Source: Cytophagaceae bacterium (GTDB lineage: Bacteria; Bacteroidota; Bacteroidia; Cytophagales; Spirosomataceae). From it: DNA of 47,817 nt. Each line of letters opens with the position of its first letter. The stretch's first letter is position 1. Where the stretch lies: contig CANFVE010000020.1 of assembly GCA_947450365.1 (NCBI GenBank), forward strand, positions 1 through 47,817, in the 5' to 3' direction. Below, piece after piece: positions 10,316-47,766 of the stretch. The notes under the pieces are model-generated. The model searched no databases. It saw only the letters and a list, made by a program, of their open reading frames with translations, and was not told the DNA's origin. The position numbers were made by a program, and so were the translations under genes.

Positions 10316-11449
10316 TTATAGCCGGTTCATAAATTGTGGAATCATGCGATTTTTCCATGCGGTAAATGTGCCGACTTTAATTTCTTTTCTTGCTTCGCCG
10401 ACCATCCATAGATAAAAGCGCAAATTAAACACACTTGCAATCATAGGTCCTAGCATTTCTTCGCAGCGAATCAAATGTCTCAAATAGGCTTTGGTATATT
10501 GGCCATGTGTATCTTCGGCAAAAAACGGGTCGATTACTGAGAAATCTGATTTCCACTTTTCGTTTTTGATGTTTATGATACCTTCGGTGGTGAAAATCAT
10601 CCCATTGCGTGCGTTGCGTGTGGGCATGACGCAGTCGAACATGTCGATTCCTAGGGCGATTCCTTCCAAAATATTGGCGGGAGTTCCTACCCCCATTAAA
10701 TAGCGGGGTTTGTCTTTGGGGAGGATGTCGGTGACTTCGTCGGCCATTTGATACATGTCTTCGACGGGTTCCCCGACGGATAGTCCACCAATGGCGTTGC
10801 CAAAGGCATCTTTTGAAGCGATGTATTCGGCAGATATTTTTCGAAGATCAGAATAAACGCTTCCTTGGACGATGGGGAAGAGGGTTTGTTGGTAGCCATA
10901 TTTAGGCTCGGTCTCGTTGAAACGGGTGATGCAGCGATCCAACCAGCGATGTGTCATGTCCATGGAATTCCGCGCATATTCGTAGGTACAAGGGTAGGGA
11001 GTACATTCGTCGAAGGCCATCATGATGTCTGCGCCGATGGTTCGTTGGATATCCATCACGGATTCTGGGCTGAAGAAATGCGTGGAGCCGTCGATGTGCG
11101 ATTTAAATTTTACTCCTTCTTCTACGATTTTCCGGCCGGTACCGGCGAGGGAATAGACTTGATATCCGCCTGAATCGGTCAGGATGGGTTTTTCCCAGCC
11201 ATTGAATTTATGTAAACCGCCGGCTGCTTCGATGATGTCGAGGCCGGGTCTGAGGTATAAATGATAGGTATTTCCCAAAATAATTTGGGCATTAATGGGC
11301 TTACTTAATTCGGAGATGTGAACTGCTTTGACGGTTCCAGCGGTCCCAACAGGCATGAAAATGGGGGTTTCGATGTCACCATGATCTGTGCGTAAGATAC
11401 CGGCTCGCGCCTTCGAGTTTGGGTCAAATTGCTCTATTTCGAATTTCAT
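10316..11449 (-). CDS. tgt: tRNA-guanine transglycosylase (queuine tRNA-ribosyltransferase)
   Basis: A 377-residue enzyme that swaps guanine-34 of GUN-anticodon tRNAs for preQ1 in queuosine synthesis. The TIM-barrel motifs are clear: DSGGYQ with general acid/base D92, GGLSVGEP near 221-228, YLMGVGTP near 250-257 and DMFDCVMPTRNARNG with nucleophile D272. The C-terminal region, where most bacterial enzymes have the CxCxxC...H zinc site, reads SVIDPFFAEDTHGQYTKAYLRH and has none of the three cysteines. I recall other Bacteroidota enzymes also lacking them, so the zinc site appears to have been lost in the lineage. The start is set by the promoter box only 4 bases before the ATG. Confidence 0.95.
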   Translation of the reverse strand: MKFEIEQFDPNSKARAGILRTDHGDIETPIFMPVGTAGTVKAVHISELSKPINAQIILGNTYHLYLRPGLDIIEAAGGLHKFNGWEKPILTDSGGYQVYSLAGTGRKIVEEGVKFKSHIDGSTHFFSPESVMDIQRTIGADIMMAFDECTPYPCTYEYARNSMDMTHRWLDRCITRFNETEPKYGYQQTLFPIVQGSVYSDLRKISAEYIASKDAFGNAIGGLSVGEPVEDMYQMADEVTDILPKDKPRYLMGVGTPANILEGIALGIDMFDCVMPTRNARNGMIFTTEGIINIKNEKWKSDFSVIDPFFAEDTHGQYTKAYLRHLIRCEEMLGPMIASVFNLRFYLWMVGEARKEIKVGTFTAWKNRMIPQFMNRL

Positions 11450-11453
11450 GGGA

Positions 11454-11461
11454 CAAAGGTA
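11454..11461 (-). promoter_or_regulatory. TAnnTTTG box abutting the tgt start codon
   Basis: TACCTTTG on the minus strand, followed by TCCC and then the ATG of tgt. With the start point expected a few bases past the box, the mRNA would be leaderless or nearly so. Confidence 0.6.
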
Positions 11462-11500
11462 CGAAAATTCATCTTTGTGAGATCAGTTCTCCTTTCCTTG

Positions 11501-11940
11501 TTCTCCTTTGCCAAACCTAGTTCTCCTTTGCCAAACCTGTAAGGATTGGCAAAGTTCGAAACCGCAGGCAAAGCCTGCGGTGAGTAGTCCATTGAGTTTT
11601 CTGTGAGAGGAGGCCTGGCTTGTTCCCCTTTGCCAAACCTAGTTCTACTTTGCCAAACCTGTAAGGATTGGCAAAGTTTGAAACCGCAGGCAAAGCCTGC
11701 GGTGAGTCTATCAAATTAGTTTTTTACGTGAAATGAAGCTTGGCTTGTTCTCCTTTGCCAAACCTGCAAGGATTGGCAAAGTTCGAAACCGCATGCGAAG
11801 CCTGCGGTGAGTAGTCCATTGAGTTTTCTGTGAGATGAGGCTTGGCCTGTCCTCCTTTGCCAATCCTCCAAGGTTTGGCAAAGTTCGCACGCCCCCATTA
11901 CCAAACCTTGAGGTTTGGCATTGGGCGAAGCCTGCGGTAA
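11501..11940. repeat. array of about four palindromic repeats filling the tgt/ThuA-dehydrogenase gap
   Basis: This 494-base gene-free gap holds about four degenerate copies of a roughly 105-130-base unit. Each copy has a long hairpin CTTTGCCAA...TTGGCAAAG (arms of 9 perfect bases, 12 with one mismatch) followed by a compact palindrome ACCGCAGGC-AAA-GCCTGCGGT, with a less conserved tail containing TGAGTAGTCCATTGAG. The CCTGCGG marks lie at 11574, 11696, 11801 and 11931, so spacing is uneven (122, 105, 130). In the third copy the short palindrome is damaged (ACCGCATGCGAAG...); the last copy has an extra CCAAACCT/AGGTTTGG hairpin. No open frame here looks like protein. The units resemble REP/BIME-like intergenic repeats and may act as transcription barriers between genes read in the same direction. 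Confidence 0.85.
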
Positions 11941-11943
11941 GTA

Positions 11944-14900
11944 TTATTCCACCTTCATTACCCCATTCATAATTCGCCAGTGGCCTGGAAAGGTACACAG
12001 GAATGGATAATTTCCAGGGACCGTTGGAGCCTTAAAGACCACCTTAAACCGACCGCCGGGTTCTACCAAGGGCGTATAGGCCAAAATCTCCGGCATCGAC
12101 GGAATATAATTTTTCGCCACACCATCCGCTGCAGTAATCATTTTATCCGCCGCTAAACCAATTTTTTCTTCACTTTTTAGGCTACCCAACACCCAATTGT
12201 GCGGCATCGCATCCGTATTCTCAAAAATTAATTCCACCGTCGCACCTGCCGGAACCGTAAATTCCTTTTGATCATATTTCATCGCCTCCGGAATCGTTTT
12301 CAAAGTCCGCTTCACCACATTTCCCGCCGCCTTTAAAGCCGGAATCTCCAATTTCCATACATTCGCCAATCGATCCAAATACTCCATATCTCCCGGTCGA
12401 ACCATCGTCGCCAAACTCGCCACATAGGCCTTCGCCTCATCCGATAATTTCGGATCACGCTTCCCATTCCACGTTCCTGCTACGCCTTTTAACGCCGCAC
12501 CAAAGGCCGGACTCGCCGTCTCTTTCATGCTTTGTAAGCGTGAAACTGCCTCATTGCCTGACCAAACGATTCCACCCGCCCGGAACATTTTCTCCACAAT
12601 CGCAATATTTAATCCCGGCGCCGTAGCTACATCCAAGGCCTTGCGATAGATATTATTTGAACGATTCGATTCACCCAAAACTGCCGCACGGTCCAATTGA
12701 ACCTCCATCACATATTTGCCCGGAACCTCAGCAGTCCAACCAAAATTACCTACCCAAGGCCCATTGTTATTGCGTGTGACGGAAACCGTTTCACCCGGTG
12801 CCACTCCATCCACAAACGTATAGGAATCATAATCCATCCGTCGGCCCATGCCCTCAATTTTTATGGTTAATGGCAACGGTGTTCCCTTCGGAATCGCCAC
12901 ATCTCCCCGGTTTTTCACTCGAACCACAAAACCAGCCCCCTCACGCACCTTGAACATACCTCCCTTGATTTGGATTTCTTCCACCACCACATCAATTCCC
13001 GCCGTACTTCCCGTCACACTCGGATTTGATAATTCCTTACCCAAAGACTCAGCCACCACAGCCGCCTTTTTTTGTCCTTCGGCTTGAATAAAACTTGTTT
13101 GACGAGCCCCCGCATGCGCCATCGCATAGGCAGCATAGGCTTCTGGAAGCCAACGGTCCTTATTTTGTTGTTCCGCCGCCATCTTCGACGCCATGGCCGC
13201 TTCCACTGCCGGGGAATTTGGCATTTCAATGAACGCTAACACCGTATTTAATTGAACCAACGTGTCCTTATCGGCTAACATTTTCTTTGCCAATAACGTC
13301 GACGCCCATTCCGCCGTCCGCGGAGCTACCTGAACCGCCTGCTTCCGAACCACCGCACTTGGATGTCCTAAGGCTTGAATTAAACCAGCTTTCACCGATG
13401 GCATATCCAATGCTCCTAATCCCTCCAGCGTCCGTAAGGCATGAATCGCCCCAGGTGCTAAACCGATTTCATCTGTTTTGGCCGTTGCCAAAACCTTTAA
13501 CAGCGCCGGAACAACATCCTTTTGGCCTCTTTCCACCAACAATCGTTGCGCCTGTAAACGCCAAAATAAATTCGAATGCTGAAGCGCCGCCACACATGCC
13601 CCAGGCGTATTCAATTGAACCGGCGTATAGGCCTGCGCACCATTCCAACCCACGCGATAAATCCGACCATGCGTAAAATCACGCAAATCATGATCATAGG
13701 CATTCCCTGCTCCATTCTTCCAACCCACCGGCGTCGGATTGTGCTGAATGATGAAACTATACCAATCCGCAATCCAAAGCGCTCCATCCGGTCCGACTTG
13801 CGAAAATACCGGTGAAACCCATTCGTCAGCTCCCGCCAAAAAGTTAAATGCCTCCTTGTCATTGTAATCTGAACCTGTTTTTATGGTGCGGTTTTGATGC
13901 ACGACGTGACCCGTAGGCTCATTCACAAAGGCAATTTGATTCCAATACGATTTCGGGAATGCCCGCGCCGTATAAAAATTATGCCCTGCTGCAGCCGTAT
14001 ATCCGCCAAAAACATCTACTTGACGTACCTTTTTCGTAATCGTCTTCATGTCCTTATGCGTGTCGGTATTTTTGGATCCATTAAAACTAAATGGAGCCTG
14101 GTAGATGTTGCGATGCGGAATAGGCATGTACCAACCGTGCGCATTATTGGCCGTCGACCCAAACACATCCCCCGCCTCATTAAAATCAAAGCCCCAGGTA
14201 TTATTCGACGTCGTCGTCATATGTTCCATTTTCGAACCATCGGGTTTGAAACGGAAAAATGCCTGTGCGAATTGCAAGGAATCCGCACCCACTTTTCCTT
14301 TGTATCCAGAATAACCCACACATCCCCATATCCAGTTGTCAAAGCCATAATGTAAATTCGACGGACCCGCATGCGTATCGCCCGTTCCAAAACCGGTAAT
14401 AATCGCCTTTTTCTCATCGGCCACCCCATCTCCATTTGTGTCCTTCAAGAATAAAATATGGGGAGCTTGGGAAACAATGAGGCCGCCATTGGCGAACACC
14501 ATGCCCGTTGGGATACTCAATCCATCCGCAAATCGTGTGAATTTATCCGCTTTCCCGTCGCCATTCGTGTCTTCGCAACGCAAAATGTAATCGCTTCCTC
14601 CCGTCTCTTTTCGCTCATTGGGATAATCCTTCGTGATCAAGACATACAATAATCCTTTTTCATCCCAGGCCATCGCGATCGGGTGCATGACATTCGGCTC
14701 CGCCGCAAATACCTGTAAATTAAAATCAACTGGGATTTGAATGTATTTTACGGATTCTTCGGGTGAGAGGGGTAGTTGTTGCAACTGTACCCCCGGCCGC
14801 TTCTCATAATTAGGCAATTTTACCTCGCGAAATGCCAAAGGCGCCAAGTTTAAATTCTCCAACAAGGCTCTTTTTTCCTCACCCACCGCATGTAAAATTC

Positions 14901-15588
14901 CTTGGGCCACTAATTGTTGGAATCCCTCCGTCTCCCATGTCCGCTCATCGTGCCCATAAGCCGTATAAAAGACATTTCCTTTGCCATATTTCCGAATCCA
15001 CGTATAGGGTTCTGTCGCCGCACCTGGCTTATCTTTCGCCTGCTCTGGCCCCAAAATACGGGATTGAATAACCACATTATCCGCCTGCAATTTGCTATGC
15101 AAATAAGTCTCATCTACTGTTTTTATGCCTGGGAAACCCGCTAATACGGGATGATTGGGTTGATCGTTTTTGATCCGAATGGAATCCATTTGATGTCGCC
15201 AAAACTGTCCTCCAACCATTTTCACAAATTCCGGAGAATTCCGAAAACAAAAAGACGCACAATGCAATGCGACCAATCCATGACCCGAAGCTACATAATT
15301 CAATAAAGCCTTTTCCTGTACCGCCGGAATCGAATCATGATTCGCGAAAATGATTAATGCATCAAATTTATTTAAATAGCCCTCATTCAAATCCTTCAAC
15401 GATTCGGTATACGTAACGTTCATGCCTTTCACCCCGATCGCCGACTGCAAAGCCGGATATCGATCAAAGGGCTTATGGTGCCCATTATCTCCTAAAAATA
15501 AAAGTTCTAAGCGCCGACCCGCAGGTTTTTGCGCCCATGCTGTTTGCATGGCCATAAACGCCCATACAAGAAAGAGTAATTTTTTCAT
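11944..15588 (-). CDS. ThuA / membrane-bound-dehydrogenase (TIGR02604-like) / HEAT / CARDB / cupredoxin fusion protein
   Basis: A 1214-residue exported protein with signal peptide MKKLLFLVWAFMAMQTAWAQ. Domains in order: ThuA-like (about 24-237, with LVALHCASFCFRN and YTAYGHDERTWETEGF); a beta-propeller sugar dehydrogenase of the TIGR02604 type (about 280-650, with RCEDTNGDGKADKFTRFADG and GPDGALWIADWYS); HEAT repeats (about 680-830); a CARDB-like beta-sandwich (about 880-1000); a helical linker; and a C-terminal plastocyanin/azurin-like domain with the full type-1 copper set H1130, C1198, H1203, M1207. No CxxCH haem motif is seen, so the copper domain may replace the cytochrome found in related proteins as electron acceptor (inference). 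It follows the Gfo/Idh/MocA gene by 6 bases. The likely role is periplasmic oxidation of a sugar or sugar derivative; the substrate is unknown. Confidence 0.85.
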   Translation of the reverse strand: MKKLLFLVWAFMAMQTAWAQKPAGRRLELLFLGDNGHHKPFDRYPALQSAIGVKGMNVTYTESLKDLNEGYLNKFDALIIFANHDSIPAVQEKALLNYVASGHGLVALHCASFCFRNSPEFVKMVGGQFWRHQMDSIRIKNDQPNHPVLAGFPGIKTVDETYLHSKLQADNVVIQSRILGPEQAKDKPGAATEPYTWIRKYGKGNVFYTAYGHDERTWETEGFQQLVAQGILHAVGEEKRALLENLNLAPLAFREVKLPNYEKRPGVQLQQLPLSPEESVKYIQIPVDFNLQVFAAEPNVMHPIAMAWDEKGLLYVLITKDYPNERKETGGSDYILRCEDTNGDGKADKFTRFADGLSIPTGMVFANGGLIVSQAPHILFLKDTNGDGVADEKKAIITGFGTGDTHAGPSNLHYGFDNWIWGCVGYSGYKGKVGADSLQFAQAFFRFKPDGSKMEHMTTTSNNTWGFDFNEAGDVFGSTANNAHGWYMPIPHRNIYQAPFSFNGSKNTDTHKDMKTITKKVRQVDVFGGYTAAAGHNFYTARAFPKSYWNQIAFVNEPTGHVVHQNRTIKTGSDYNDKEAFNFLAGADEWVSPVFSQVGPDGALWIADWYSFIIQHNPTPVGWKNGAGNAYDHDLRDFTHGRIYRVGWNGAQAYTPVQLNTPGACVAALQHSNLFWRLQAQRLLVERGQKDVVPALLKVLATAKTDEIGLAPGAIHALRTLEGLGALDMPSVKAGLIQALGHPSAVVRKQAVQVAPRTAEWASTLLAKKMLADKDTLVQLNTVLAFIEMPNSPAVEAAMASKMAAEQQNKDRWLPEAYAAYAMAHAGARQTSFIQAEGQKKAAVVAESLGKELSNPSVTGSTAGIDVVVEEIQIKGGMFKVREGAGFVVRVKNRGDVAIPKGTPLPLTIKIEGMGRRMDYDSYTFVDGVAPGETVSVTRNNNGPWVGNFGWTAEVPGKYVMEVQLDRAAVLGESNRSNNIYRKALDVATAPGLNIAIVEKMFRAGGIVWSGNEAVSRLQSMKETASPAFGAALKGVAGTWNGKRDPKLSDEAKAYVASLATMVRPGDMEYLDRLANVWKLEIPALKAAGNVVKRTLKTIPEAMKYDQKEFTVPAGATVELIFENTDAMPHNWVLGSLKSEEKIGLAADKMITAADGVAKNYIPSMPEILAYTPLVEPGGRFKVVFKAPTVPGNYPFLCTFPGHWRIMNGVMKVE

Positions 15589-15594
15589 CTTGGT

Positions 15595-16707: not shown

Positions 16708-16711
16708 TCAG

Positions 16712-16731: not shown

Positions 16732-16782
16732 TTTTCTAAGATAGTAATCCTATGTCATAGAAAAGAGAAAAAATGTGATTTT

Positions 16783-23507: not shown

Positions 23508-23515
23508 TATCTTTG
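23508..23515 (+). promoter_or_regulatory. TAnnTTTG box abutting the M28 peptidase start
   Basis: TATCTTTG followed by TAAA and then the ATG at 23520. The 4-base gap implies a leaderless or nearly leaderless transcript. Confidence 0.6.
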
Positions 23516-23519: not shown

Positions 23520-24524
23520 ATGAATCGTTCACGCATTGCCCTCATTTTACTGATCCTCTTCGTGTTGAGCGGAGGGTATTTTTGGTTGAGTACGAGTCGG
23601 TCCACGGATAATACAACGTCCACCGCACCCACCATAGTTCCAAGCCCCGATTTTATGGCCGATTCCGCCTATGCCTACATCGCCAAACAGGTGGCCTTTG
23701 GACCCCGTATACCGAATTCAGCAGCACAAGTGGCCTGTCGGGATTGGTTGGCCGCCGAATTAAAACGCCATGGCTGGATCGTTTCTCTCCAAGCATTCAG
23801 CGCGAATCGCTATGATGGCCTAAAAATGAAGGGCTATAATATTGTGGCCCAATATAATCCTTCGGCCGCCAAACGCATTTTGCTGGCAGCCCATTGGGAT
23901 GCGCGCTCGATTGCGGACAAAGATAGCGTTCAACAAAAGGAACCCATCGATGCGGCGAATGATGGCGCAAGTGGGGTTGGGGTCTTGCTTGAAATCGCAA
24001 GACAAATTACGGCAGCCACGTCGAAACCGAATGTCGGCATCGACATCGTTTTATTTGATTTAGAAGATCATGGTGAACCCCATGATTTTACGGGAAATTC
24101 GTCCCCGACGAGCTGGGCTCTGGGTTCTCAGCACTGGGCGGCGAACCTTATGCCTGCTGGTTATAAACCCTATTATGGCATTTTATTAGACATGGTGGGT
24201 GCCAAAGGTGCTCTTTTCCCTCATGAAGGCAGCTCGATGCAATATGCGCCTGGAATTGTGCGCTCGATTTGGGCGACCGCCTCGGATTTAGGCTATTCAA
24301 ATTATTTTTTGGATGAAGACGCTTTCGGGATTTCCGATGACCATACGGCCGTGAATGAGGTGGCCAAAATTCAGATGATTGACATCATCGATTTACGGCC
24401 CATGAATGGCGGCTATGAATTTGGAAGCTATCACCATACCCATCAAGACAATTTACAAAACATCGACAAAGCCACACTGAAGGCAGTGGGCCAAACCCTT
24501 TTACAAGTTTTATATCGCGAATAA
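23520..24524 (+). CDS. membrane-anchored M28-family peptidase / glutaminyl cyclase
   Basis: A 334-residue protein with one N-terminal membrane segment (IALILLILFVLSGGYFWL) and a periplasmic catalytic domain. The zinc-binding set follows M28/glutaminyl-peptide cyclotransferase order: AAHWDARSIAD (His and the Asp after it), DAANDGASGVGVLLEIA (bridging Asp), DLEDHGEP (acid pair), LLDMVGAKG (Asp) and YHHTHQDNLQN (final His). The DxEDxG and HTHQDN segments resemble glutaminyl cyclases more than aminopeptidases. Many Bacteroidota signal peptides, including several in this window, expose Gln after cleavage, which fits cyclisation of N-terminal Gln to pyroglutamate (inference). It leads an operon with gcvT 3 bases downstream. 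Confidence 0.85.
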   Translation: MNRSRIALILLILFVLSGGYFWLSTSRSTDNTTSTAPTIVPSPDFMADSAYAYIAKQVAFGPRIPNSAAQVACRDWLAAELKRHGWIVSLQAFSANRYDGLKMKGYNIVAQYNPSAAKRILLAAHWDARSIADKDSVQQKEPIDAANDGASGVGVLLEIARQITAATSKPNVGIDIVLFDLEDHGEPHDFTGNSSPTSWALGSQHWAANLMPAGYKPYYGILLDMVGAKGALFPHEGSSMQYAPGIVRSIWATASDLGYSNYFLDEDAFGISDDHTAVNEVAKIQMIDIIDLRPMNGGYEFGSYHHTHQDNLQNIDKATLKAVGQTLLQVLYRE

Positions 24525-26331: not shown

Positions 26332-26358
26332 ATTTCCGCCTGAAAGACCGTATTTTTG
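26327..26358 (+). promoter_or_regulatory. two-element promoter of thrC
   Basis: TTTG (26327-26330, overlapping the comB stop) is separated by 20 bases from TATTTTTG (26351-26358). The box ends 6 bases before the thrC ATG at 26365. It is the best complete sigma-A promoter in front of a protein gene in this window. Confidence 0.72.
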
Positions 26359-26364: not shown

Positions 26365-27669
26365 ATGATTCTGTATAGCACCCAACAAAAAAGTTCTGAC
26401 GTTTCCTTTGAGGAGGCTATTTTCCGTGGCTTACCTCCGGATAATGGATTGTACATGCCTACGGAAATTCAACGCATGCCCGCTTCATTTTTCGAGCAAA
26501 TGCATACGATGACCTTGCCTGAAATTGCGGAGGCGGTATGCCAAAATTTATTGGGTCACGATTTATCCCCTGATGACATTAAGTCGATTATTGCTGCTTC
26601 GATGACTTTTGAAGCACCTTTGTTCGACTTGGAACCTGGAGTGCAGGTATTGGAATTATTTCACGGACCTTCGATGGCCTTTAAGGATTTTGGTGCGCGA
26701 TTTATGGCGGCCGTTATGTCGCATTATTTGCAGAAACATCAGCGCGAAATCCGCATTTTGGTGGCAACTTCCGGCGATACGGGAGGTGCTGTGGCCCAAG
26801 GTTTTTTTCAAACACCGGGGATTTCGGTGACGATTTTATATCCATCGGGAAAGGTGTCGGATATTCAAGAAAAGCAATTGACAACCCTCGGGGGGAATGT
26901 GCAGGCGCTGGAGATCGATGGGACCTTTGATGATTGCCAACGATTAGTGAAGCAGGCCTTTTTAGACGAAGAATTACGAGAAAAATTCAATTTAGCTTCC
27001 GCGAACTCAATTAATATTGCCCGATTGATTCCTCAGTCCTTTTATTATTTTGCAGCCTTTGCGGCACTACGCAAACAGGGAAATCGGAAACCTGTTGTTT
27101 TCGCGGTTCCTTCGGGGAATTTTGGAAATTTAAGCGCAGGTTTGATGGCCTATCAAATGGGTTTGCCGGTGCAGGCATTCGTAGCGGCTTGTAATGAGAA
27201 TCATCCGGTACCGGATTATTTAGCGACAGGAGTATATGAACCGTCGCCGAGTGTTGAAACCATTTCCAATGCCATGGATGTAGGCAGTCCTTCTAATTTT
27301 GTGCGGATGCAGATTTTGGCGGGTCTTGAATGGTCAAAGGTCGCAAGTCTCGTGAAAGGATATGCCACGGATGACGAAAAAACGAAAGAAGTTATGGCCG
27401 ACGTATTTGCGCGTACGGGATATATTATGTGTCCCCACACGGCAGTGGGTTATGACGGCTTAATGCAATATCAGGCGGAAAATGCTGGAGCGTATGTGGG
27501 TGTGGTATTATCAACGGCCCATTATGCGAAGTTTTTGCCAACAGTGGAGGCCGTGTTAGGCCAACGAGTTCCTGTTCCACAGCGTTTGGCCGAATTACTG
27601 GATTTACAAAAAAAATCCGTTCGTTTAGGAACGGATTTTGAGGGTTTTAAATCCTATTTATTGGCTTAA
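26365..27669 (+). CDS. thrC: threonine synthase
   Basis: A 434-residue PLP enzyme that converts O-phosphohomoserine to threonine. The N-terminal MILYSTQQKSSDVSFEEAIF and GLPPDNGLYMPTEI are typical of the long (fungal/E. coli-like) class. The PLP lysine is in GPSMAFKDFGARF, the phosphate loop in ATSGDTGGAVAQGF, and AVPSGNFGNLSAG follows. The start is set at 26365, because the in-frame TTG at 26356 falls inside the promoter box. Its stop TAA shares the tetramer TTAA with the convergent DoxX gene. No other threonine-pathway gene is nearby. Confidence 0.95.
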   Translation: MILYSTQQKSSDVSFEEAIFRGLPPDNGLYMPTEIQRMPASFFEQMHTMTLPEIAEAVCQNLLGHDLSPDDIKSIIAASMTFEAPLFDLEPGVQVLELFHGPSMAFKDFGARFMAAVMSHYLQKHQREIRILVATSGDTGGAVAQGFFQTPGISVTILYPSGKVSDIQEKQLTTLGGNVQALEIDGTFDDCQRLVKQAFLDEELREKFNLASANSINIARLIPQSFYYFAAFAALRKQGNRKPVVFAVPSGNFGNLSAGLMAYQMGLPVQAFVAACNENHPVPDYLATGVYEPSPSVETISNAMDVGSPSNFVRMQILAGLEWSKVASLVKGYATDDEKTKEVMADVFARTGYIMCPHTAVGYDGLMQYQAENAGAYVGVVLSTAHYAKFLPTVEAVLGQRVPVPQRLAELLDLQKKSVRLGTDFEGFKSYLLA

Positions 27670-31661: not shown

Positions 31662-33407
31662 TTATTTCTTGTTTTGCGAAATATCGAGAATACGCATTTG
31701 CAAGTTGCGCTGTCCTCGGAATTCATTTACTTCGATATGATAGACGAGCTCAATCGGCTTTTGTTGCTCAAAAGCCTCCAGCAAACCCTCATAAAAATCC
31801 TTTCGAATCCCAAATCCTACCGCCTCAAACATCGTGTGGTTTGGATGCAAACCGATCATCAATTTCAAATGCTCCTCCTTCATGATGAACGGAGCTTTCG
31901 TCAAGTAAAGCTGCCCACTGTGGAAATTTGGCAACATATTTCCAGGTCCATAGGGGGACAATCGAGTCAATAAATTATCATAAAAAGGAAGAGATATCGA
32001 CTCCATGGGCAAGGAAACATCGATGGGCAAATCTGCCTTTATTTTTCCATCCGGAATGCCCGCTTGGACTAATTCCTCAAATCGGGCAATAAATGCCTCT
32101 AAATTTTCAGGTTTCAAATGCAAACCTGCCGCATGCGTATGGCCACCAAATTGCTCGAGTAAATCGGCACATCGTTCGAGCGCTTGGTGAATATCAAATC
32201 CTTTGACGGATCGCGCCGATCCAACAATTTGTCCATGGGATTCAGTCAAAATAATGGTAGGCCGAAAATAGACCTCTTGGATTTTACTAGCCACAATCCC
32301 GACGACACCTTTATGCCAACCGGCTTGAAATAACACCGTACTCTTCGCCTGTTGCAAAAAGGGATTTTCCGAAAACATGGCTAGGGCCTGTTGGACAATC
32401 TCCTTTTCTACCACCCGACGATCTAAATTCTGTTGAATCACACGTTCAGCCATCATTTGGGCCTCAGTTAAATCGCTGGCCAATAATAATTTTACCGCAC
32501 CATGCGCATGGTCCATCCGACCCGCCGCATTGATAATGGGTGAAATCGAAAAGACAATATCAGAAATCTGAATGGGCGCTTTTTTGCTCGCTTTTTGCAA
32601 TAAATAATCCAAGCCTGGACTCGGACTCGTGCCTAATTTTTGTAAACCCCAATAAGCCAATACCCGATTTTCATCCAAAATGGGCACCATATCCGCCGCG
32701 ATCGAGCAGGCCAATAAATCCAAACGATCCCAAAGGGGCTCAAATTCCAAGTCATTCGCCTGCGCGAATGCACAGAGTAATTTAAAGCCTACGCCACAAC
32801 CCGTCAATTCTTTGAAGGGATACGAACAATCCGTGCGTTTAGGATCTAGGACCGCCAAGGCGTTCGGCAATGTTTCTTCCGGCAAATGATGGTCGCATAC
32901 GATAAAATCGATTCCTTGCTCATGGCACCAGGCCACTTTATCATGCGCCTTAATCCCACAATCCAAGGAAATAATCAAACTGTAACCATTGTCTGCTGCG
33001 AATTGAACGCCCGCTTGCGACACGCCATAGCCTTCCGTATAGCGATCCGGTATGTAATAATCACAATCCGCCCCTAACATTTCTGTAAGATAGCCATATA
33101 CAAGTGCCACCGAAGTGGTTCCGTCTACGTCATAATCTCCATAAATCAGAATTTTTTCCCCGTTTTCGAGGGCGAGTCCCAATCGTTCCACGGCCACATC
33201 CATGTCCTTCATCAGAAAAGGATCATGCAATTTTTCGAGCGAAGGAAGCATGAAGGCCTTGGCCTGGTCAAATGTCTCAATTCCGCGTGAAACGAGCAAT
33301 TGTAAAAAATAGGGGTTCTTGGTCACCTTCAACGCCTCCCCTAAGCCCTTTACTTTTTCAGCGGCGGGAATAGGTACGGGAATCCAGTTTTTTTTGGGTT
33401 GAATCAT
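31662..33407 (-). CDS. recJ: single-stranded-DNA-specific 5'-3' exonuclease RecJ
   Basis: A 581-residue DHH-family nuclease that resects single-stranded DNA in recombination and mismatch repair. Motifs in order: YGDYDVDGTTSVAL (motif I aspartates), SLDCGIKAHD, CDHHLPEETLP (DHH), INAAGRMDHA, GVVGIVASKI, and the DHHA1 motif FGGHTHAAGLHL near 430. The length fits RecJ. The ATG at 33407 is preceded by a perfect promoter box with a 4-base gap. A weak hairpin separates it from the trans-sulfuration gene upstream. Confidence 0.95.
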   Translation of the reverse strand: MIQPKKNWIPVPIPAAEKVKGLGEALKVTKNPYFLQLLVSRGIETFDQAKAFMLPSLEKLHDPFLMKDMDVAVERLGLALENGEKILIYGDYDVDGTTSVALVYGYLTEMLGADCDYYIPDRYTEGYGVSQAGVQFAADNGYSLIISLDCGIKAHDKVAWCHEQGIDFIVCDHHLPEETLPNALAVLDPKRTDCSYPFKELTGCGVGFKLLCAFAQANDLEFEPLWDRLDLLACSIAADMVPILDENRVLAYWGLQKLGTSPSPGLDYLLQKASKKAPIQISDIVFSISPIINAAGRMDHAHGAVKLLLASDLTEAQMMAERVIQQNLDRRVVEKEIVQQALAMFSENPFLQQAKSTVLFQAGWHKGVVGIVASKIQEVYFRPTIILTESHGQIVGSARSVKGFDIHQALERCADLLEQFGGHTHAAGLHLKPENLEAFIARFEELVQAGIPDGKIKADLPIDVSLPMESISLPFYDNLLTRLSPYGPGNMLPNFHSGQLYLTKAPFIMKEEHLKLMIGLHPNHTMFEAVGFGIRKDFYEGLLEAFEQQKPIELVYHIEVNEFRGQRNLQMRILDISQNKK

Positions 33408-33411: not shown

Positions 33412-33419
33412 CAAAAATA
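33412..33419 (-). promoter_or_regulatory. TAnnTTTG box abutting the recJ start codon
   Basis: TATTTTTG on the minus strand, then ACCT, then ATG. The 4-base gap implies leaderless transcription. Confidence 0.6.
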
Positions 33420-33474: not shown

Positions 33475-34599
33475 TTAGGCTTGTAGGGCTTGTTGGAGAT
33501 CCGCCCACAAATCATCCACATGCTCCAATCCGATCGATAAACGCAATAAATTGCCCGGTGTCGTACTTGCGGGGCCTTCGATCGACCGACGATGTTCCAC
33601 CAAACTTTCCACCCCGCCTAAACTCGTGGCTTGGGTAAAAAGCGTGAGCGCATTGGCTACTTGACGCGCGCGCGTTTCGTCGCCTTGAATCTGAATGGAA
33701 ATCATGGCACTTTGGCCCATCGGCATTTGCTTCATGGCGAGGGCATATTGCGGATGGGAGGGAAGTCCTGGATAATGCACGTGCGCGATTTGCGGGTGCT
33801 TTTCTAATTTTTGGGCTAAATCTAAGGCCGTTGCCGCCTGTTCACGCATACGAATCGGCAAGGTTTTCAGGCCTCGGGTCAGTAAATAACAGTCCAATGG
33901 ATTTTGGGTGGCGCCCATCAAAATTTGCACGCGTAAGATTCGCTCGGCCCAAGCATCTTGTTCCTTGACCACAATTGCCCCGCCTAATACATCTGAATGT
34001 CCTCCGATGTATTTGGTCGTGGCATGCATGACTAAATCCGCGCCAAGGGCCAATGGATTTTGGAAAATGGGTGTCGCAATCGTGTTATCCACGCCCACAC
34101 GGATGCCTCGTGCGTGCGCAAGGGCTGAAATGGCTTCAATATCCGACAGACTTAATAGGGGATTGGCTGGGGTTTCAACCCAAATGAGCCGTGTGTTTGG
34201 TTGGATCGCAGCTTCGATGGCCTCGAGGGAGCCCATGTCCACTTGACTTACCTCCAGGCCCCAGGGTCCCATGATTTCTTCGGCCAATTTATAGCTGGCA
34301 TAATAGCCGACCTCCGGCATTAGGATGTGATCTCCTTTGGAAAGGCATTGAAAAACGGCTGAAACGGCGGCTAAACCGGAACTGAAGGCAAAGGCACGTG
34401 CACCGCCTTCCAAGGCTGCGAGGCCTTTTTCGAGGGCATCGCGGTTTGGATTGGAATTACGGGAATACATGTGTCCTTTGGGGTAGGATCCGTCGGCGGC
34501 ACGTTCAAAGGTCGTGGTTAAAAATATGGGTGTCGCCACGGAATTCGCTGTTTCGTCCTGAACATGCGTCGCGTGTATGGCTAAGGTTTCTTTTTTCAT
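33475..34599 (-). CDS. PLP-dependent trans-sulfuration enzyme (cystathionine gamma-synthase / beta-lyase family)
   Basis: A 374-residue fold-type I PLP enzyme of the Cys/Met metabolism family. TIFLTTTF-like [57 protein letters not shown] and the Schiff-base lysine in [16 protein letters not shown] are all present; [12 protein letters not shown] closes the active site. Members include cystathionine gamma-synthase, gamma-lyase, beta-lyase and methionine gamma-lyase, and sequence reading alone does not separate them. It overlaps the lptB stop by 4 bases (ATGA), an unusual translational coupling of amino-acid metabolism to LPS export. Confidence 0.92.
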
Positions 34600-35327
34600 T
34601 TTTTCTTCCGCAGCTCAAAGTTTTTACCTAGGTATAATCGGCGCACTTGTTCATCATCGGCCAATTCTTGCGGCGTACCGGCTTTTAGAATTTTCCCTTC
34701 GAAGAGTAAATAGGCGCGGTCGGTGATGGACAAGGTTTCATCCACGTTATGGTCGGTGATTAGAATTCCGATATTTCGGTATTTTAATTTGGCCACGATG
34801 CTTTGAATTTCCTCCACGGCGATGGGATCCACACCCGCAAAGGGTTCATCCAATAGAATAAATTTGGGATCTACGGCGAGGGCTCGGGCGATTTCGGTAC
34901 GCCGACGTTCGCCTCCTGAAAGGACTTGTCCCAAGCTTTTTCGTACATGGGTGAGTGAAAATTCTTCGAGTAAACTTTCCGTTTTTTCTTTTTGTTCGGC
35001 CTTGCTGAGCTCGGTCATTTCGAGGACCGCGAGGATATTTTCTTCAACGGATAGGGTTCTAAACACACTTGCTTCTTGGGCTAAATAACCGATCCCGAGG
35101 CGTGCACGTTTGTACATGGGGAGGTTGGTGACATCGAGCTCATCCAAAAAAACCTTTCCCTCATTAGGCTTGACAAGGCCGGTGGCAATGTAAAAGGAAG
35201 TGGTTTTTCCCGCACCGTTGGGGCCTAATAGACCTACGATTTCACCTTGGGCCACTTGGTAAGAAATGTGGTCATTGACCAGTCGCTGGCCATATTTTTT
35301 GACAAGATTTTCGGTGCGTAGAATCAT
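34596..35327 (-). CDS. lptB: LPS export ABC transporter ATP-binding protein LptB
   Basis: A 243-residue ABC ATPase. Walker A is [15 protein letters not shown], the Q-loop follows, the signature is [15 protein letters not shown], Walker B is [13 protein letters not shown] and the H-loop is [12 protein letters not shown]. LptB is distinguished by [20 protein letters not shown] and [14 protein letters not shown]. It powers LPS extraction with LptF/LptG; a permease gene of that family is at 17671-18747. I place the start at 35327 ([13 protein letters not shown]): the longer frame begins with a TTG at 35336, inside the promoter box. It is followed by the trans-sulfuration gene with an ATGA overlap. 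Confidence 0.94.
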
Positions 35328-35333: not shown

Positions 35334-35349
35334 CAAATCTACAAATATA
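35334..35349 (-). promoter_or_regulatory. tandem TAnnTTTG boxes in front of lptB
   Basis: On the minus strand TATATTTG (35342-35349) is followed immediately by TAGATTTG (35334-35341), two perfect consensus boxes end to end. The proximal box ends 6 bases and the distal one 14 bases before the ATG, so two start points may exist, one leaderless. Confidence 0.6.
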
Positions 35350-41051: not shown

Positions 41052-41116
41052 GATTTCTTGGGTTTACAGATTTATATTCGGGTAATTTAGTATTTTTCGT
41101 AACATATTCCATTCGT

Positions 41117-43003: not shown

Positions 43004-43817
43004 AGCTTCTTAATTTAAGCAAACTGGCGGATCGGATTTGTTGTAAATGATTTTGCTGGGCTTTCCATAAATTTTCCGCCGTGTCTTGGTCGCAAAGATT
43101 AAATTGAATGGGTTCTCCGGGTCTTTTTTGGGCCAATTTAGGCAAATCAGCTGAGATCACATGGGCGATCATGGGGTAGCCGCCGGTCAATTGGTGGTCG
43201 GCCATTAAAATGATCAATTTTCCCCAATGCGTAAGCTGTACAGTCCCAAAACTCGCCGCGGTGGACAATATATCTTCGTTCGTTCGGGTCTCAAGTGCTG
43301 GGTGGTCGAGTCGAAAACCCATGCGATTCGCTTCATGGGAAAGGAGATGAATTTGGCTAAAAAATTGTTGCTGTGCCCGCGAAGTCAATCGTTCCCAATC
43401 CCGACCGGGCACTACATGGATGAGGGGGCAGGGTGATTTTTCCCAGGCGATGTTTGCCGACCACGGTAAGATGCGTGCTTCTTGGATTGAAAAAGGACTT
43501 TCGGCCGTTGCCAAATAGGCGCGCGCACCTTTCACCGGTGCCTGAAAGCTTAAGATGGAGCCTTTGGGGGCCCAAATAGGTCGGTGAAGGGGGATGGACA
43601 GATCATTTAGTCGGGCTGTGAAATCCGCCCCACTTAGGCAAAAAAGGCGATCTGATTCCCATTCGATTTTCGCGGCCGGGAAGTGCATTTCCAAACAAGT
43701 TTGGTCCAAAGGACTTCCAAGTACTGCATTGGCCAGTGAACATGAAAAGCTATCCATGGGTTTTTCCGTGTGGGAATCGAGCAAGCCCGCTTGGAGGATT
43801 TGGTAGGGGATGATCAT
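42993..43817 (-). CDS. pxpC: 5-oxoprolinase subunit C (biotin-dependent carboxyltransferase-like), shortened N-terminus
   Basis: A 274-residue protein, shorter than the usual 300 or more. The start at 43817 overlaps the pxpB stop by 4 bases (ATGA); a longer frame back to 43913 lies inside pxpB and reads as non-protein. The core is recognisable: LFCLSGADFTARLND, HRPIWAPKGSILSF, GARAYLATAES, HEANRMGFRLDHPAL, GTVQLTHWGKLIILMADHQLTGGYPMIAHV. The segment after the opening strand reads LLDSHTEKPMDSFSCSLAN, where the family normally has a TTVQDLGR-plus-glycine-rich stretch before the MD; about a dozen residues including QDLGR are gone. The frame is intact, so it is not a pseudogene by sequence, but activity could be altered. 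Confidence 0.85.
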   Translation of the reverse strand: MIIPYQILQAGLLDSHTEKPMDSFSCSLANAVLGSPLDQTCLEMHFPAAKIEWESDRLFCLSGADFTARLNDLSIPLHRPIWAPKGSILSFQAPVKGARAYLATAESPFSIQEARILPWSANIAWEKSPCPLIHVVPGRDWERLTSRAQQQFFSQIHLLSHEANRMGFRLDHPALETRTNEDILSTAASFGTVQLTHWGKLIILMADHQLTGGYPMIAHVISADLPKLAQKRPGEPIQFNLCDQDTAENLWKAQQNHLQQIRSASLLKLRSYAN

Positions 43818-44485
43818 GATTCGGCGGCGTAAAATTGGACCGAATCTCCGGCGCGAAGGACAGGGATTCCGTGATGTATGAATGGAAAATCGGTGTGGCC
43901 GATGAGCTGCCAACCGCCCGGCGAATCTCCCGGGTAAACCCCCGTTTGATTCCCGGCGATGCCCACATGTCCGGCTTTAACGGCTTGCGGACTGGGCTTT
44001 CTGGGCAAGTGGATCCGAGAATCCACCTCCCCCAAATAGCCAAAACCTGGTAAAAACCCGAGCATAAATACGCGATAAAGGGGTTTGGTATGTAGGAAAA
44101 TAAACTCAGCAAGTGAAAGCCCAGTTTGCGTAAGTGCCCAGGCTAAATCCGGCGCGACATCGAAATCGTAGCGAACGGGAATGCGGTGTATTTTCCCATC
44201 GGCCGGGGATGTGCTCTGCGGTTTGACGACTACCTGCTGCACATGCTGGATGACATCGGATAGGCAGCAATTGGACAAAACCAAAGCCTTTAAGTCCACA
44301 TGAAAGCTAAGTGTTCGATAGGCGGGAACGAGGGATCGAATGAAGGGAATGGGGTGTTGGCTAAAATAGGCTTGAAAAAAATGCACCTGCTCATTAGCTT
44401 CCAGGAGCGATGCCTGTTGAAATTCGATCGAAAAAGCCGCGTCTCCTAAGGGAAATATGCGATATGGGAAGGCTGGCTCTGTCAT
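43814..44485 (-). CDS. pxpB: 5-oxoprolinase subunit B (KipI/PxpB family)
   Basis: A 223-residue protein of normal length. It starts PYRIFPLGDAAFSIEF, matching the allophanate-hydrolase-subunit-1 fold. The conserved block is FLHTKPLYRVFMLGFLPGFGYL, followed by RKPSPQAVKAGHVGIAGNQTGVYPGDSPGGWQLIG. It works with PxpC and PxpA on 5-oxoproline. It opens the three-gene unit, and a GGTTTAAATT word lies upstream. Pyroglutamate may come partly from Gln-N-terminal secreted proteins cyclised by the M28-type enzyme at 23520 (speculative). Confidence 0.93.
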   Translation of the reverse strand: MTEPAFPYRIFPLGDAAFSIEFQQASLLEANEQVHFFQAYFSQHPIPFIRSLVPAYRTLSFHVDLKALVLSNCCLSDVIQHVQQVVVKPQSTSPADGKIHRIPVRYDFDVAPDLAWALTQTGLSLAEFIFLHTKPLYRVFMLGFLPGFGYLGEVDSRIHLPRKPSPQAVKAGHVGIAGNQTGVYPGDSPGGWQLIGHTDFPFIHHGIPVLRAGDSVQFYAAES

Positions 44486-44545
44486 GGGAAAAGGGACTCG
44501 ATTTTTTCGTGGTTTAAATTAGGCTTATTTGTTCAAAAATTAATT

Positions 44546-44553
44546 TAAATTCG
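44546..44553 (+). promoter_or_regulatory. near-consensus promoter box abutting the FGE start
   Basis: TAAATTCG, one base from TAnnTTTG, then TAAA and the ATG at 44558: the same box-plus-4 spacing as in tgt and recJ. Confidence 0.4.
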
Positions 44554-44557
44554 TAAA

Positions 44558-45643
44558 ATGTATTGGACACGAATATTTTTCTTGCTTTGTTTTCCGCTTG
44601 CGTTGATCGCGCAAAGCAAAAAAATCACCGTTTGTCATGTCCCGGTTCCTAGTAAAAGGGGAATTATATTGGCTAAAAATACGCCATCTGTATCTTCTCC
44701 CAAAACCAATATCGCCGGCATGGTCCGAATTCCTGGGGGATTTTTTGGGATGGGATCGCATAGCAAAGAAGGTCGGGCGGATGAATATCCTGTGCATCAG
44801 GTTCAGGTCAAGGGTTTTTGGATGGATGAAACGGAGGTGACGAATGCACAATTTGCGGCATTTGTCAAGGCCACGGGCTATGTGACGACGGCTGAAAAGG
44901 CGATCGACTGGGAAGAGATGAAAAAACAGGTGCCCCTTGGAACGCCGAAACCGGCGGATTCACTTTTGGCGGCCAGTTCGCTGGTTTTTGTCCCGACGAC
45001 CGGCCCTGTAAATCTAAATGACTATAGTCAATGGTGGCAATTCAAAGCCGGAGCTGATTGGCGGCATCCTTCAGGTCCGCAATCGAGTATTGAAGGAAAA
45101 GAAAATCATCCGGTCGTGCAGGTTTCTTGGGACGATGCGCAGGCCTATGCGCGCTGGGCGGGGAAGCGTTTGCCGACGGAGGCGGAATGGGAATGGGCCT
45201 CTCGCGGTGCTTTGAAAAATATGGAATTTCCTTGGGGGGCGGAGTCGGTGGATCAAGGTCCCATGAAGGCAAATACCTGGCAAGGCGATTTTCCGTATCG
45301 GGATGATGCCAAAGATGGCTTTCGCTTTACGACCGCACCGGCCAAAACCTATGAAGCCAATGGGTATGGGTTATATGATATGGCGGGGAATGTGTGGGAA
45401 TGGTGTTCGGATAATTATCGGCATGATTACTATCGGCAGTTGAAAGGTCGCTTAAGTATTTCTCCCAAAGGTCCCAAAGACAGTTATGATCCCGACGAAC
45501 CGGGCATCCCGAAAAAGGTGATGCGCGGAGGATCTTTTTTGTGCAATGATGCGTATTGCGCGAGTTATCGGGTCGCGGCGCGAATGAAATCCAGTCCGGA
45601 TTCGGGATTACAGCACACGGGTTTTCGCTGTGTGAAAGATTAA
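44558..45643 (+). CDS. formylglycine-generating enzyme family protein (SUMF1-like) with both active-site cysteines
   Basis: A 361-residue secreted protein with signal peptide MYWTRIFFLLCFPLALIAQ. The FGE-sulfatase domain begins MVRIPGGFFGMGSHSKEGRADEYP and has WMDETEVTNAQFAAFVKATGY, HPVVQVSWDDAQAYARWAGKRLPTEAEWEWASRG, GLYDMAGNVWEWCSD and the final RGGSFLCNDAYCASYRVAAR. The two copper-binding cysteines of true formylglycine-generating enzymes are present (C329 and C334). Most bacterial SUMF1-domain proteins (for example gliding lipoproteins) lack them, so a sulfatase-activating role is likely, although no sulfatase is in this window. The end shares TTAA with the convergent GH97 gene. Confidence 0.9.
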   Translation: MYWTRIFFLLCFPLALIAQSKKITVCHVPVPSKRGIILAKNTPSVSSPKTNIAGMVRIPGGFFGMGSHSKEGRADEYPVHQVQVKGFWMDETEVTNAQFAAFVKATGYVTTAEKAIDWEEMKKQVPLGTPKPADSLLAASSLVFVPTTGPVNLNDYSQWWQFKAGADWRHPSGPQSSIEGKENHPVVQVSWDDAQAYARWAGKRLPTEAEWEWASRGALKNMEFPWGAESVDQGPMKANTWQGDFPYRDDAKDGFRFTTAPAKTYEANGYGLYDMAGNVWEWCSDNYRHDYYRQLKGRLSISPKGPKDSYDPDEPGIPKKVMRGGSFLCNDAYCASYRVAARMKSSPDSGLQHTGFRCVKD

Positions 45644-47712
45644 TTGATTTTTTTCAGGCTGACGGCGCAACCTCCTCCCCGTTGGAGCCGATAGGTCATG
45701 TTTGATACGCGTGTCACCAAGCGTTTTTCGATCATGTAGGCCTCTGGATTTTTTTCAAAATCTGCATTATCTGCATCTCGGTACACGATGGCTTCGTAGG
45801 TTTTGTCGGGGTCTAAGAAATCGAGCCCGAAGGAGATGTTTCGTGCATTTTCGTTGGTGATGGAACCAATGAACCAGGCGTCTTTCCCTTTGGCTTTTCG
45901 GGCGATGGTGATGTATTCGCCGGGTTCGGCGGAGATGATTTTGGTGTCGTCCCAATTGACCGGAACGTCCTTAATAAACTGAAAAGCATCCAAATGTTGC
46001 TCGTAATTTTCGGGCAGATCCGCGGCCATTTGCAAAGGGCTGTAAATGGTCACGTAGAGGGCCAATTGTTTCGCCAGGGTTGAGCGGACTTTTTGGGTTC
46101 GCGTCGTATCAAACTGATTTAGGGACATGTGAAAAAGGCCAGGCGTATAGTCCATAGGTCCACCGATGAGCCGGGTGAAGGGCAAAATGGTCGTGTGATT
46201 CGGGACGATTCCGAGGGTGGGGGCGTTGTTGAATTCAGAACCGCGGGCGGCTTCGGAGGCGAGCCAGTTGGGATAGGTCCGCTGCAAGCCCGTCGGGTGG
46301 GAGGATTCGTGAGAATCGACCATGAGTTTGTATTCGGAAGCTTTTTCGGCGACGCGCTGGTAGTGTTGGATCATCCATTGGGAATCATGGTGTTCGCCAC
46401 GGGGGATAATACGGCCTACGTAACCTGTTTTGACGGTATTGATCCCTTTGGCAATCATATATGTATATGCGGCATCCATGCGGCGTTCGTAATTGGTGAC
46501 GGAACCGGAGGTTTCGTGGTGCATGATGAGGCGGAGGCCTTTGGATTGAGCGTATTTGGAGAGGGAATCGATGTCGTAGTCGGGATAAGGACTGGTGAAA
46601 TCGAAGACATTTTCTTTCCAATTGCCGAACCAGTCTTCCCAGCCTTGGTTCCATCCTTCGACGAGGACCCCGTCGAAGCCATGTTGGGCCGCAAAATCAA
46701 TGTAGCGTTTTACGTTCGTGGTGTTTGCTCCGTGTTTTCCACCGGCCAGGGGCCAATTGGCCTTCCCGACATGCATTTCCCACCACATACCTACAAATTT
46801 TTGACCTTTAATCCAGGTAGAATCTTTGATTTTAGAGGGCTCGTTGAGGTTCAAAATCAGTTTGGAGGCGAGGATTTGCTCGGCTTTGTCGGCAATGATC
46901 AGGGTTCGCCAAGGCGTGGAAAAAGGGCTTTGTAAATAGGCTTTGTTGCCCACGGCGTCGGGGGTCAACTGGCTCGTGAGTGTATTTCCATTCACTTGCA
47001 AATGCATGACGGGGTAATTTAGCAAAGCTGCTTCGTGGACATTGATGTACAAACCTTCGGAAGATTTGAGCATGAGGGGGCTTTGGACGAAATTTTTCCC
47101 GATGGGGGAGGTAAGGGCGATGTCTTTTTCTTTGGCGGCGGCGGCGCTGGCGTCGATTTCGCTGAGTTTAGATTTGTTGTAGGTGTATTCGTTGGTATCA
47201 TAATCCCCCGGAATCCAAAAGGCGGTGTGGTCACCGGTCATTTTGAAGGAGGAAAATTCGTTGTCGACGATGAAGTGATTTAGGTTATCCTGTTTCGGAA
47301 ATGTATATCGAAAACCGATGCCGTCGTCGTAGATACGGAATTGGATTTGCAAGTTGATACCTGAATTTCCGGCGTCCTTAAGCTCTATCCTGAGGGCGGA
47401 GTATTGATTTCGGATGTCTTTTACTTCTCCGAGGAGGGGTGACCAGGTTTCGTCAAACGTGGAGGAATCGATGCGAATGACGGTGAATTTCCGGAGCTCG
47501 GCCAGTGGTTTTTTTAAGGTAAAACCGAGGGTCGAGGGGGCGATGGCCTCTTTGGATTTATGGAAAACTTGGTATTGGATCTGTTTTTCTGGGCTTTGGA
47601 TGAGCTTGACTTCGATGAGCTTGTTTGGCGAGCTGAGGCTGGCAATTGTTTGGGCTTCAAGGGAGGCGGAAGCAAAACAAGCGATCAATAAACAGATAAT
47701 TTGTTTTTTCAT
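45640..47712 (-). CDS. glycoside hydrolase family 97, SusB-like inverting alpha-glucosidase
   Basis: A 690-residue secreted enzyme with signal peptide MKKQIICLLIACFASASLEAQ. It has the GH97 N-terminal beta-supersandwich, then a TIM barrel with EGWNQGWEDWFGNW and TVKTGYVGRIIPRGEHHDSQW. Residues matching the inverting SusB set are E440 (in RGEHH), E469 (in DSHESSHP) and E493 (in ARGSEFN); their spacing equals that of SusB E439/E508/E532 only for the last pair. The retaining-subgroup aspartate is absent (VKTGYVG at that place). It probably acts on alpha-linked gluco-oligosaccharides. Start 47712 is chosen because the in-frame TTG at 47718 lies inside the promoter box. Convergent with the FGE gene. 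Confidence 0.93.
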   Translation of the reverse strand: MKKQIICLLIACFASASLEAQTIASLSSPNKLIEVKLIQSPEKQIQYQVFHKSKEAIAPSTLGFTLKKPLAELRKFTVIRIDSSTFDETWSPLLGEVKDIRNQYSALRIELKDAGNSGINLQIQFRIYDDGIGFRYTFPKQDNLNHFIVDNEFSSFKMTGDHTAFWIPGDYDTNEYTYNKSKLSEIDASAAAAKEKDIALTSPIGKNFVQSPLMLKSSEGLYINVHEAALLNYPVMHLQVNGNTLTSQLTPDAVGNKAYLQSPFSTPWRTLIIADKAEQILASKLILNLNEPSKIKDSTWIKGQKFVGMWWEMHVGKANWPLAGGKHGANTTNVKRYIDFAAQHGFDGVLVEGWNQGWEDWFGNWKENVFDFTSPYPDYDIDSLSKYAQSKGLRLIMHHETSGSVTNYERRMDAAYTYMIAKGINTVKTGYVGRIIPRGEHHDSQWMIQHYQRVAEKASEYKLMVDSHESSHPTGLQRTYPNWLASEAARGSEFNNAPTLGIVPNHTTILPFTRLIGGPMDYTPGLFHMSLNQFDTTRTQKVRSTLAKQLALYVTIYSPLQMAADLPENYEQHLDAFQFIKDVPVNWDDTKIISAEPGEYITIARKAKGKDAWFIGSITNENARNISFGLDFLDPDKTYEAIVYRDADNADFEKNPEAYMIEKRLVTRVSNMTYRLQRGGGCAVSLKKIN

Positions 47713-47715
47713 GCA

Positions 47716-47723
47716 CAAAAATA
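47716..47723 (-). promoter_or_regulatory. TAnnTTTG box abutting the GH97 start codon
   Basis: TATTTTTG on the minus strand, then TGC, then ATG at 47712. With a 3-base gap this is the tightest of the six perfect cases and excludes the TTG start inside the box. Confidence 0.6.
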
Positions 47724-47758
47724 GTTATTTTCGAATAATAAATAGGTTTAAAATTCAA

Positions 47759-47766
47759 TACCTTCG
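47759..47766 (+). promoter_or_regulatory. near-consensus box abutting the partial gene at the right edge
   Basis: TACCTTCG, one base from consensus, then TGCC and the ATG at 47771. Confidence 0.4.

Follow-up and report, generated by a model that had tools for sequence, protein, structure and literature searches.

Boxes and genes in the window

The stretch of DNA analyzed here (the window, 47,817 bp) is contig C20 of a MAG of 2.66 Mb in 61 contigs, which is 93.6% complete. The RecJ protein encoded in the window shared 94% identity with the RecJ of an uncultured Cytophagaceae bacterium (L001); its identity to the proteins of Aquirufa beregesia and A. ecclesiirivi (L008 and L009) was 71%. Since the bases upstream of recJ are identical in L008 and in L302, a locus from a genome (G031) of the window's genus, this genus is probably Aquirufa or includes Aquirufa, and the organism would be a freshwater, Aquirufa-like member of the Cytophagales. 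Six genes of the window are preceded by a perfect TAnnTTTG box. In the following list and throughout, we write d for the count of bases that separate the final G of a box from the start codon.

10316..11449, minus strand: tgt, tRNA-guanine transglycosylase gene, predicted to be leaderless (TIGR00430, 463 bits; cutoff, 307)
11454..11461, minus strand: tgt -7 box TACCTTTG, d=4; box or near-box at d=4 in 24/24 congener loci
23508..23515, plus strand: -7 box TATCTTTG of the M28 peptidase gene, d=4; d=4 in 10/23 congener loci and d=21-24 in 13/23
23520..24524, plus strand: M28-family peptidase gene, predicted to be leaderless here (PF04389, 109 bits)
26351..26358, plus strand: thrC -7 box TATTTTTG, d=6; exact box in 2/22 congener loci
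26365..27669, plus strand: thrC, threonine synthase gene (TIGR00260, 270 bits; cutoff, 167)
31662..33407, minus strand: recJ, exonuclease gene (TIGR00644, 502 bits; cutoff, 397)
33412..33419, minus strand: recJ -7 box TATTTTTG, d=4; exact at d=4 in 2/26 congener loci
34596..35327, minus strand: lptB, LPS export ABC ATPase gene (TIGR04406, 365 bits; cutoff, 240)
35334..35341, minus strand: lptB -7 box TAGATTTG, d=6; exact box or TATTTTTA at d=4-6 in 19/21 congener loci
35342..35349, minus strand: second lptB box TATATTTG, adjacent upstream, d=14, a possible alternative; the pair [14, 6] also occurs in L198 and L199
44546..44553, plus strand: weak near-match TAAATTCG of the FGE-sulfatase gene, d=4 with respect to ATG 44558; the coding-only caller prefers 44669
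45640..47712, minus strand: GH97 glycoside hydrolase gene (PF14508, PF10566, and PF14509)
47716..47723, minus strand: -7 box TATTTTTG of the GH97 gene, d=3; d=3-4 in 7/11 congener loci (one near-box) and d=20-21 in 4/11
47759..47766, plus strand: near-match TACCTTCG, 4 bases before ATG 47771; the frame runs off the contig

All six perfect boxes lie where the preliminary description had placed them, 3-6 bases before an ATG and with the spacings it had given. The five genes that it had set beside them as leadered were also as described, with boxes at d=17, 17, 20, 24, and 28. Its three near matches exist as well (first bases 44546, 47759, and 9434) and are weaker than the perfect boxes; those of the FGE and serine hydrolase genes are weak, and for the latter gene an exact box within 60 bases of the start was found in none of the four relatives compared. 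The variant TAnnTTCG, comparable to the near-match TACCTTCG, occurred six times at d=3-6 in the pooled sample described below, against a background of 0.25 per position. In addition, longer frames that begin at a TTG inside the thrC, lptB, and GH97 boxes are present, as had been pointed out. A caller that uses coding potential only, and that prefers ATG by design, chose the ATG at all six genes, including these three.

Two further features were observed in the window. Upstream of tgt (11492-11943), three to four imperfect direct repeats with a spacing of ~102-122 bp are accompanied by two hairpin-like modules. They may be a structured RNA that is repeated, or a mobile remnant. Within 1.25 Mb of the own sample, two module patterns were confined to the window, and the 10-base core of one module was scattered (28 matches, 6 of them in the window). 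A perfect TATTTTTG box at 9754-9761 (minus strand) ends 12 bases before tRNA-Gly (9668-9741) and would suit a tRNA promoter.

Distances between boxes and start codons

We examined the distance from box to start codon in a sample of the own genome (1,247,817 bases in 61 pieces, window included). A total of 1080 genes were called by a gene finder based on in-frame hexamers and a start-codon prior alone, which takes no upstream information and has a built-in preference for ATG. Among them, 543 ATG genes were classified as first genes of probable transcription units, being divergent from the upstream neighbor or separated from it by a gap of at least 25 bases. The 29 other arrangements of the six fixed letters of the box served as controls. 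A genome-wide peak in this distance had been named beforehand as a test of the preliminary description, and the peak was observed: 20 boxes ended at d=3-6 (2, 11, 3, and 4 at d=3, 4, 5, and 6, respectively), against a control mean of 1.34 and a control maximum of 6. Six boxes were found at d=7-14 and 55 at d=15-22, so that the distribution was bimodal, with a broad hump from d=15. A promoter is less expected at the downstream gene of a close tandem; of 348 such genes, 3 also had a box at d=3-6. Counts of raw TANNTTTG(N)dATG strings taken without gene calls gave no peak, because matches inside genes swamp the signal.

A congener sample (G007; 800 kb and 362 first genes) gave the same picture: 11 boxes lay at d=4-5, the range d=6-12 was empty, and a single box lay at d=13 (permuted-box controls: mean, 0.41; maximum, 2). 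When the two samples were pooled (905 genes), 31 boxes (3.4% of the first genes) lay at d=3-6, 5 at d=8-13, and 146 at d=15-30, over a background of 1.28 per position. By this background (1.28 x 4), ~5 of the 31 boxes at d=3-6 could be due to chance. In the trough, exact boxes are no more frequent than the background. Over wider ranges, exact boxes numbered 32 (d=2-7), 5 (d=8-13), and 248 (d=14-60), so that roughly one in ten exact boxes at d=2-60 (32/285) lies at leaderless distance. Exact boxes at d=3-6 numbered 3-7 in dinucleotide shuffles. For the ranges d=2-7, d=8-13, and d=14-60, a position-weight model with free positions gave ~89, 17, and 590 sites, respectively, compared with 16-29, 9-24, and 161-198 sites when the learned matrix was applied to five dinucleotide shuffles; since the trough count of 17 falls inside the shuffle range, a few short leaders are possible. 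GTG or TTG was the called start of 125 first genes, although many of these calls may be wrong; none of these genes had a box at d=2-7, one had a box at d=1, and one at d=8. These results indicate that a minority class of boxes at leaderless distance is real.

In the 1.248 Mb sample, 26 ATG genes had a box at d=2-8, and 6 of them fall in the 47.8 kb of the window. The Poisson probability of this enrichment is ~2e-4 for a random window, but the boxes themselves were the reason for selecting this window, and the simplest account of the surplus is chance together with selection of the finding. The other 20 genes included maf, uvrA, metH, ygiQ, bamD, hisH, and an aroB-like gene, all above cut-offs, and an rsmH fragment and rmuC below cut-off; six had no match. 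No common pathway among these 20 genes was evident from the gene names.

Orthologues within and outside the genus

The six proteins were searched against 31 genomes of the genus (the own genome and 30 drawn from a larger group), and the upstream regions were compared at loci expected to hold the N-terminus of the right orthologue, own copies being left out. Fragments of tgt (L151 and L344), M28 (L251-L253; L252 matched residues 1-27), and recJ (L307-L309), the thrC loci L278 and L279, distant ABC ATPases that are not lptB (L220-L226), and distant GH97 paralogues (L322-L327) were excluded from the counts. One thrC and one lptB locus among those given lacked a usable N-terminus.

The box of tgt was found at d=4 in all 24 congener loci, exact in 23 and as TACCTTTA in one, with variation in the spacer bases and the flanks; congeners share ancestry, so these loci do not represent 24 independent events. 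The same box at d=4 was present in a named genome, that of A. ecclesiirivi (L345). For lptB (21 loci), 7 boxes were exact (five at d=4 and two at d=6), 12 loci had TATTTTTA at d=4, and 2 were without a box. The M28 peptidase gene and the GH97 gene each fell into two groups. Of 23 M28 loci, 10 carried the box at d=4; in the other 13 it lay at d=21-24. No intermediate distance occurred, and the start codon was aligned in all. At the 11 GH97 loci, where the orthologue starts shift by -6 to +12 bases, six exact boxes and one TAATTTCG were found at d=3-4 and four boxes at d=20-21, again with none between. Box and spacing therefore recur in the orthologues of four of the six genes (tgt, lptB, M28, and GH97, near-boxes included).

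The other two genes gave a different result. For recJ (26 loci), an exact box at d=4 was detected in 2 loci and a box at d=51 in one, and 23 were without; for thrC (22 loci), 2 had an exact box at d=6, 2 had near-boxes, and 18 had none. In both genes, the exact box was kept in two close relatives only. As individual cases, thrC and recJ are thus weak candidates for leaderless genes; the leaderless case is strongest for tgt and weakest for thrC. In several congeners (L002, L003, L004, L005, and L028), a GCCAAAGAnTTTGGC-type palindrome lies just upstream of recJ and terminates ~12-13 bases short of the start codon; the species of the window has the putative leaderless box in its place.

Across the congener loci, 293 different upstream sequences were compared, and none had an exact box at d=7-13. 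The congener loci were fetched because of these genes, which inflates the peak at d=3-6 in this set; the empty range at d=7-13 is not so explained. Orthologue pairs between the own and G007 samples gave a weak picture. A reciprocal partner in G007 was available for 10 of the own genes that have a box at d=2-8; the box was kept in one partner, three partners were leadered, and six had no exact box; conversely, one of six G007 genes with such a box and an own partner kept it.

Outside the genus, no tgt box at d=3-6 was found in six genomes of the same order (L149, L150, and L152-L155); L150, from another genus, has a box at d=10. At 64 recJ loci of distant Bacteroidota, an exact box was located at d=3-4 in three and at d=7-8 in three. 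For a comparison across the phylum, first genes were called with one pooled coding model at 70 of the 80 recJ-search loci, leaving out 10 near relatives. The 636 first genes had 17 boxes at d=3-6, against a control mean of 1.31 and a maximum of 5. The trough was shallow in this set (12 boxes at d=8-13, or 2.0 per position, against a background of 1.31), so a near-total gap is shown for the window's genus only.

Upstream DNA and the leaderless reading

The -7 element TAnnTTTG of the Bacteroidota sigma-A (sigma-ABfr) type is present in the six window boxes, and the learned matrix agrees with it. We compared the DNA upstream of the 31 boxes at leaderless distance with that of 233 leadered boxes. 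The AT profiles of the 20 nt upstream of the box were correlated (r=0.80), whereas a matched control, taken at the same place in genes without a box, gave a mean r of -0.22 (SD, 0.23), and 0 of 5000 draws were as high. AT-rich, phased upstream DNA, as reported for Flavobacterium johnsoniae, was observed in both sets, with peaks ~5-8 and 14-18 nt upstream. As a candidate for the -33 TTG/TTTG element, a TTG starting 22 or 23 nt before the box was counted in 12 and 12 of the 233 leadered cases, respectively, and in 1 and 3 of the 31 leaderless ones, numbers too small for a judgement. The preliminary description had spoken of two coexisting promoter classes. Two kinds of upstream DNA would then be expected, but one was found, and one promoter at two distances fits better because the upstream DNA of the two sets is alike.

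The difference between the sets was limited to the bases after the box. In 25 genes with d=4-5, A made up 17 of the 100 bases in the four positions after the box, compared with 238 of 780 after leadered boxes, and 18/100 at positions -4 to -1, compared with 251/780. Purines in the spacer numbered 31/100 in these genes and 382/788 after leadered boxes (P ~0.001 if bases are independent). A spacer poor in A and in purines could help to focus the start of transcription on the A of the AUG. The distance peak, the promoter-like upstream DNA, and the recurrence among orthologues together bear out the earlier suggestion that the boxes are promoters of the Bacteroidota sigma-A type set for a start at or beside the ATG. 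We consider the leaderless reading very probable for the group as a whole.

It is unlikely that the close boxes are chance occurrences, or lie inside leaders made from promoters further upstream, so that the mRNAs would be leadered. Boxes are not rare in AT-rich intergenic DNA (~1.3 per position in the 905 genes), lptB has a second box at d=14, and the boxes of thrC and recJ are missing from most congeners. Against this stand the 20 boxes over a permuted mean of 1.34, the exact spacing at tgt in 24/24 congener loci, and the promoter-like profile upstream; yet some individual cases could be due to chance. The possibility that starts are misplaced, the true start being a downstream Met preceded by an ordinary leader, is more doubtful still. 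Four of the 31 leaderless genes do have another in-frame ATG in codons 2-15, and the GH97 starts vary among orthologues, but 27 of 31 have none (leadered genes: 193/229) and the starts were picked from coding potential alone. Furthermore, residue 1 aligned with offset 0 in 24/24 tgt, 23/23 M28, 22/22 thrC, and 21/21 lptB loci, where matching took the ATG nearest to residue 1. By computation, the AUG is predicted to lie at the true N-terminus of the close-box genes. Finally, although F. johnsoniae, in a phylum without Shine-Dalgarno sites, is described as tuning initiation by the bases that flank the start (PMC6847099), and FCB-group genomes have been modelled with AT-rich non-canonical ribosome-binding sites (PMC9581028), it is highly improbable that the close box is a ribosome-binding or Kozak-like translation signal rather than a promoter, as leadered genes carry this very motif as their -7 box at d=15-30, with the same upstream AT profile, and the A-poor positions -4 to -1 are the opposite of an A-rich leader signal.

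In the leaderless reading, a minority of transcription units in the genus would be leaderless. The housekeeping sigma factor, as its probable reader, would recognize a TAnnTTTG box ending ~4 bases before the ATG, and transcription would begin on the A of the AUG or no more than two bases away, a start point that we infer from the box-to-start spacing of 4-5 nt published for F. johnsoniae. A box at d=6 would leave a leader of 1-2 nt. The ribosome would then initiate on the 5'-terminal AUG. In other genes, the same kind of promoter would lie ~15 or more bases upstream and yield leaders of at least ~11 nt. Hardly any leader would measure ~3-9 nt, presumably since such a length suits neither mode of ribosome loading.

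Sources on the phylum, as far as their available text goes, describe a leaderless minority. In Flavobacterium psychrophilum, leaderless transcripts account for 5.5% of the mRNAs of 890 CDSs (PMC9723704). In F. johnsoniae, many box-to-start distances are 4-5 nt, and 87% of leaders are >10 nt, hence 13% are 10 nt or shorter (PMC6847099). In Bacteroides thetaiotaomicron, ~3.7% of 5' UTRs are <10 nt (PMC7366714). The genus studied here resembles these three species of the same phylum in the TAnnTTTG box and the leaderless minority; unlike in those species, the starts here are predicted from sequence, and orthologues compared within one genus show two discrete states. In a survey of non-SD genes, it was proposed that the nucleotide biases upstream of these genes in Bacteroidetes may be Pribnow boxes of leaderless mRNAs (PMC5397173). 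Like our analysis, that survey proposes a leaderless contribution in Bacteroidetes from sequence alone; it uses average base frequencies in four Bacteroidetes species, and the portions available to us include neither a comparison of orthologues nor a histogram of distances, and no TAnnTTTG box. In Actinobacteria and Deinococcus-Thermus, the TA-led genes (PMC3160421) are likewise read as leaderless, in the text available, from a promoter box set a short and constant number of bases before the start codon; the reference there is TATAAT-like, with Bacteroidetes among the clades with many "atypical" genes, whereas the box here is TAnnTTTG.

The open-licence literature was searched both for bimodality of leader length and for leaderless mRNAs in Bacteroidetes, Spirosoma, Cytophagales, or Aquirufa. 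Among the matches listed, the accessible passages held nothing on this genus or on a forbidden range of leader length; the terms "leaderless mRNA" and "Spirosoma" occur together in PMC10783764 and PMC3155529, as far as these texts were available. A leaderless minority in Bacteroidota is already known; orthologues in either state and the near-empty range of 3-9 nt are the part that we did not meet among the matches and passages available. According to the accessible text of PMC9976891 and PMC10783764, the anti-Shine-Dalgarno tail of F. johnsoniae is occluded by bS21, bS18, and bS6. A 16S rRNA sought in the own genome for its anti-Shine-Dalgarno end gave no match (0/1).

Taken further, leader length in the genus may be quantized at either 0-2 nt or ~11 nt and more, with genes flipping between the two states by moves of the box. 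The Bacteroidota ribosome, its anti-Shine-Dalgarno tail tucked away as published for F. johnsoniae, would load on a 5'-terminal AUG or on a leader whose length fills the mRNA channel, and would not load on a leader of 3-9 nt. We rate the chances of this proposal as about even. The way in which Bacteroidota ribosomes find start codons matters because, in the part of PMC9976891 available, Shine-Dalgarno sites are described as not being recognized. The M28 peptidase and GH97 genes, which look leaderless in some species and seem to have a leader of ~17-20 bases in others (with the start of M28 kept), lend themselves to a comparison of the two routes as a natural experiment. A forbidden range of leader length, if true, would be a measurable constraint on loading of the small subunit, and the position of the box, if true, would provide annotators of these genomes with a usable signal for start codons.
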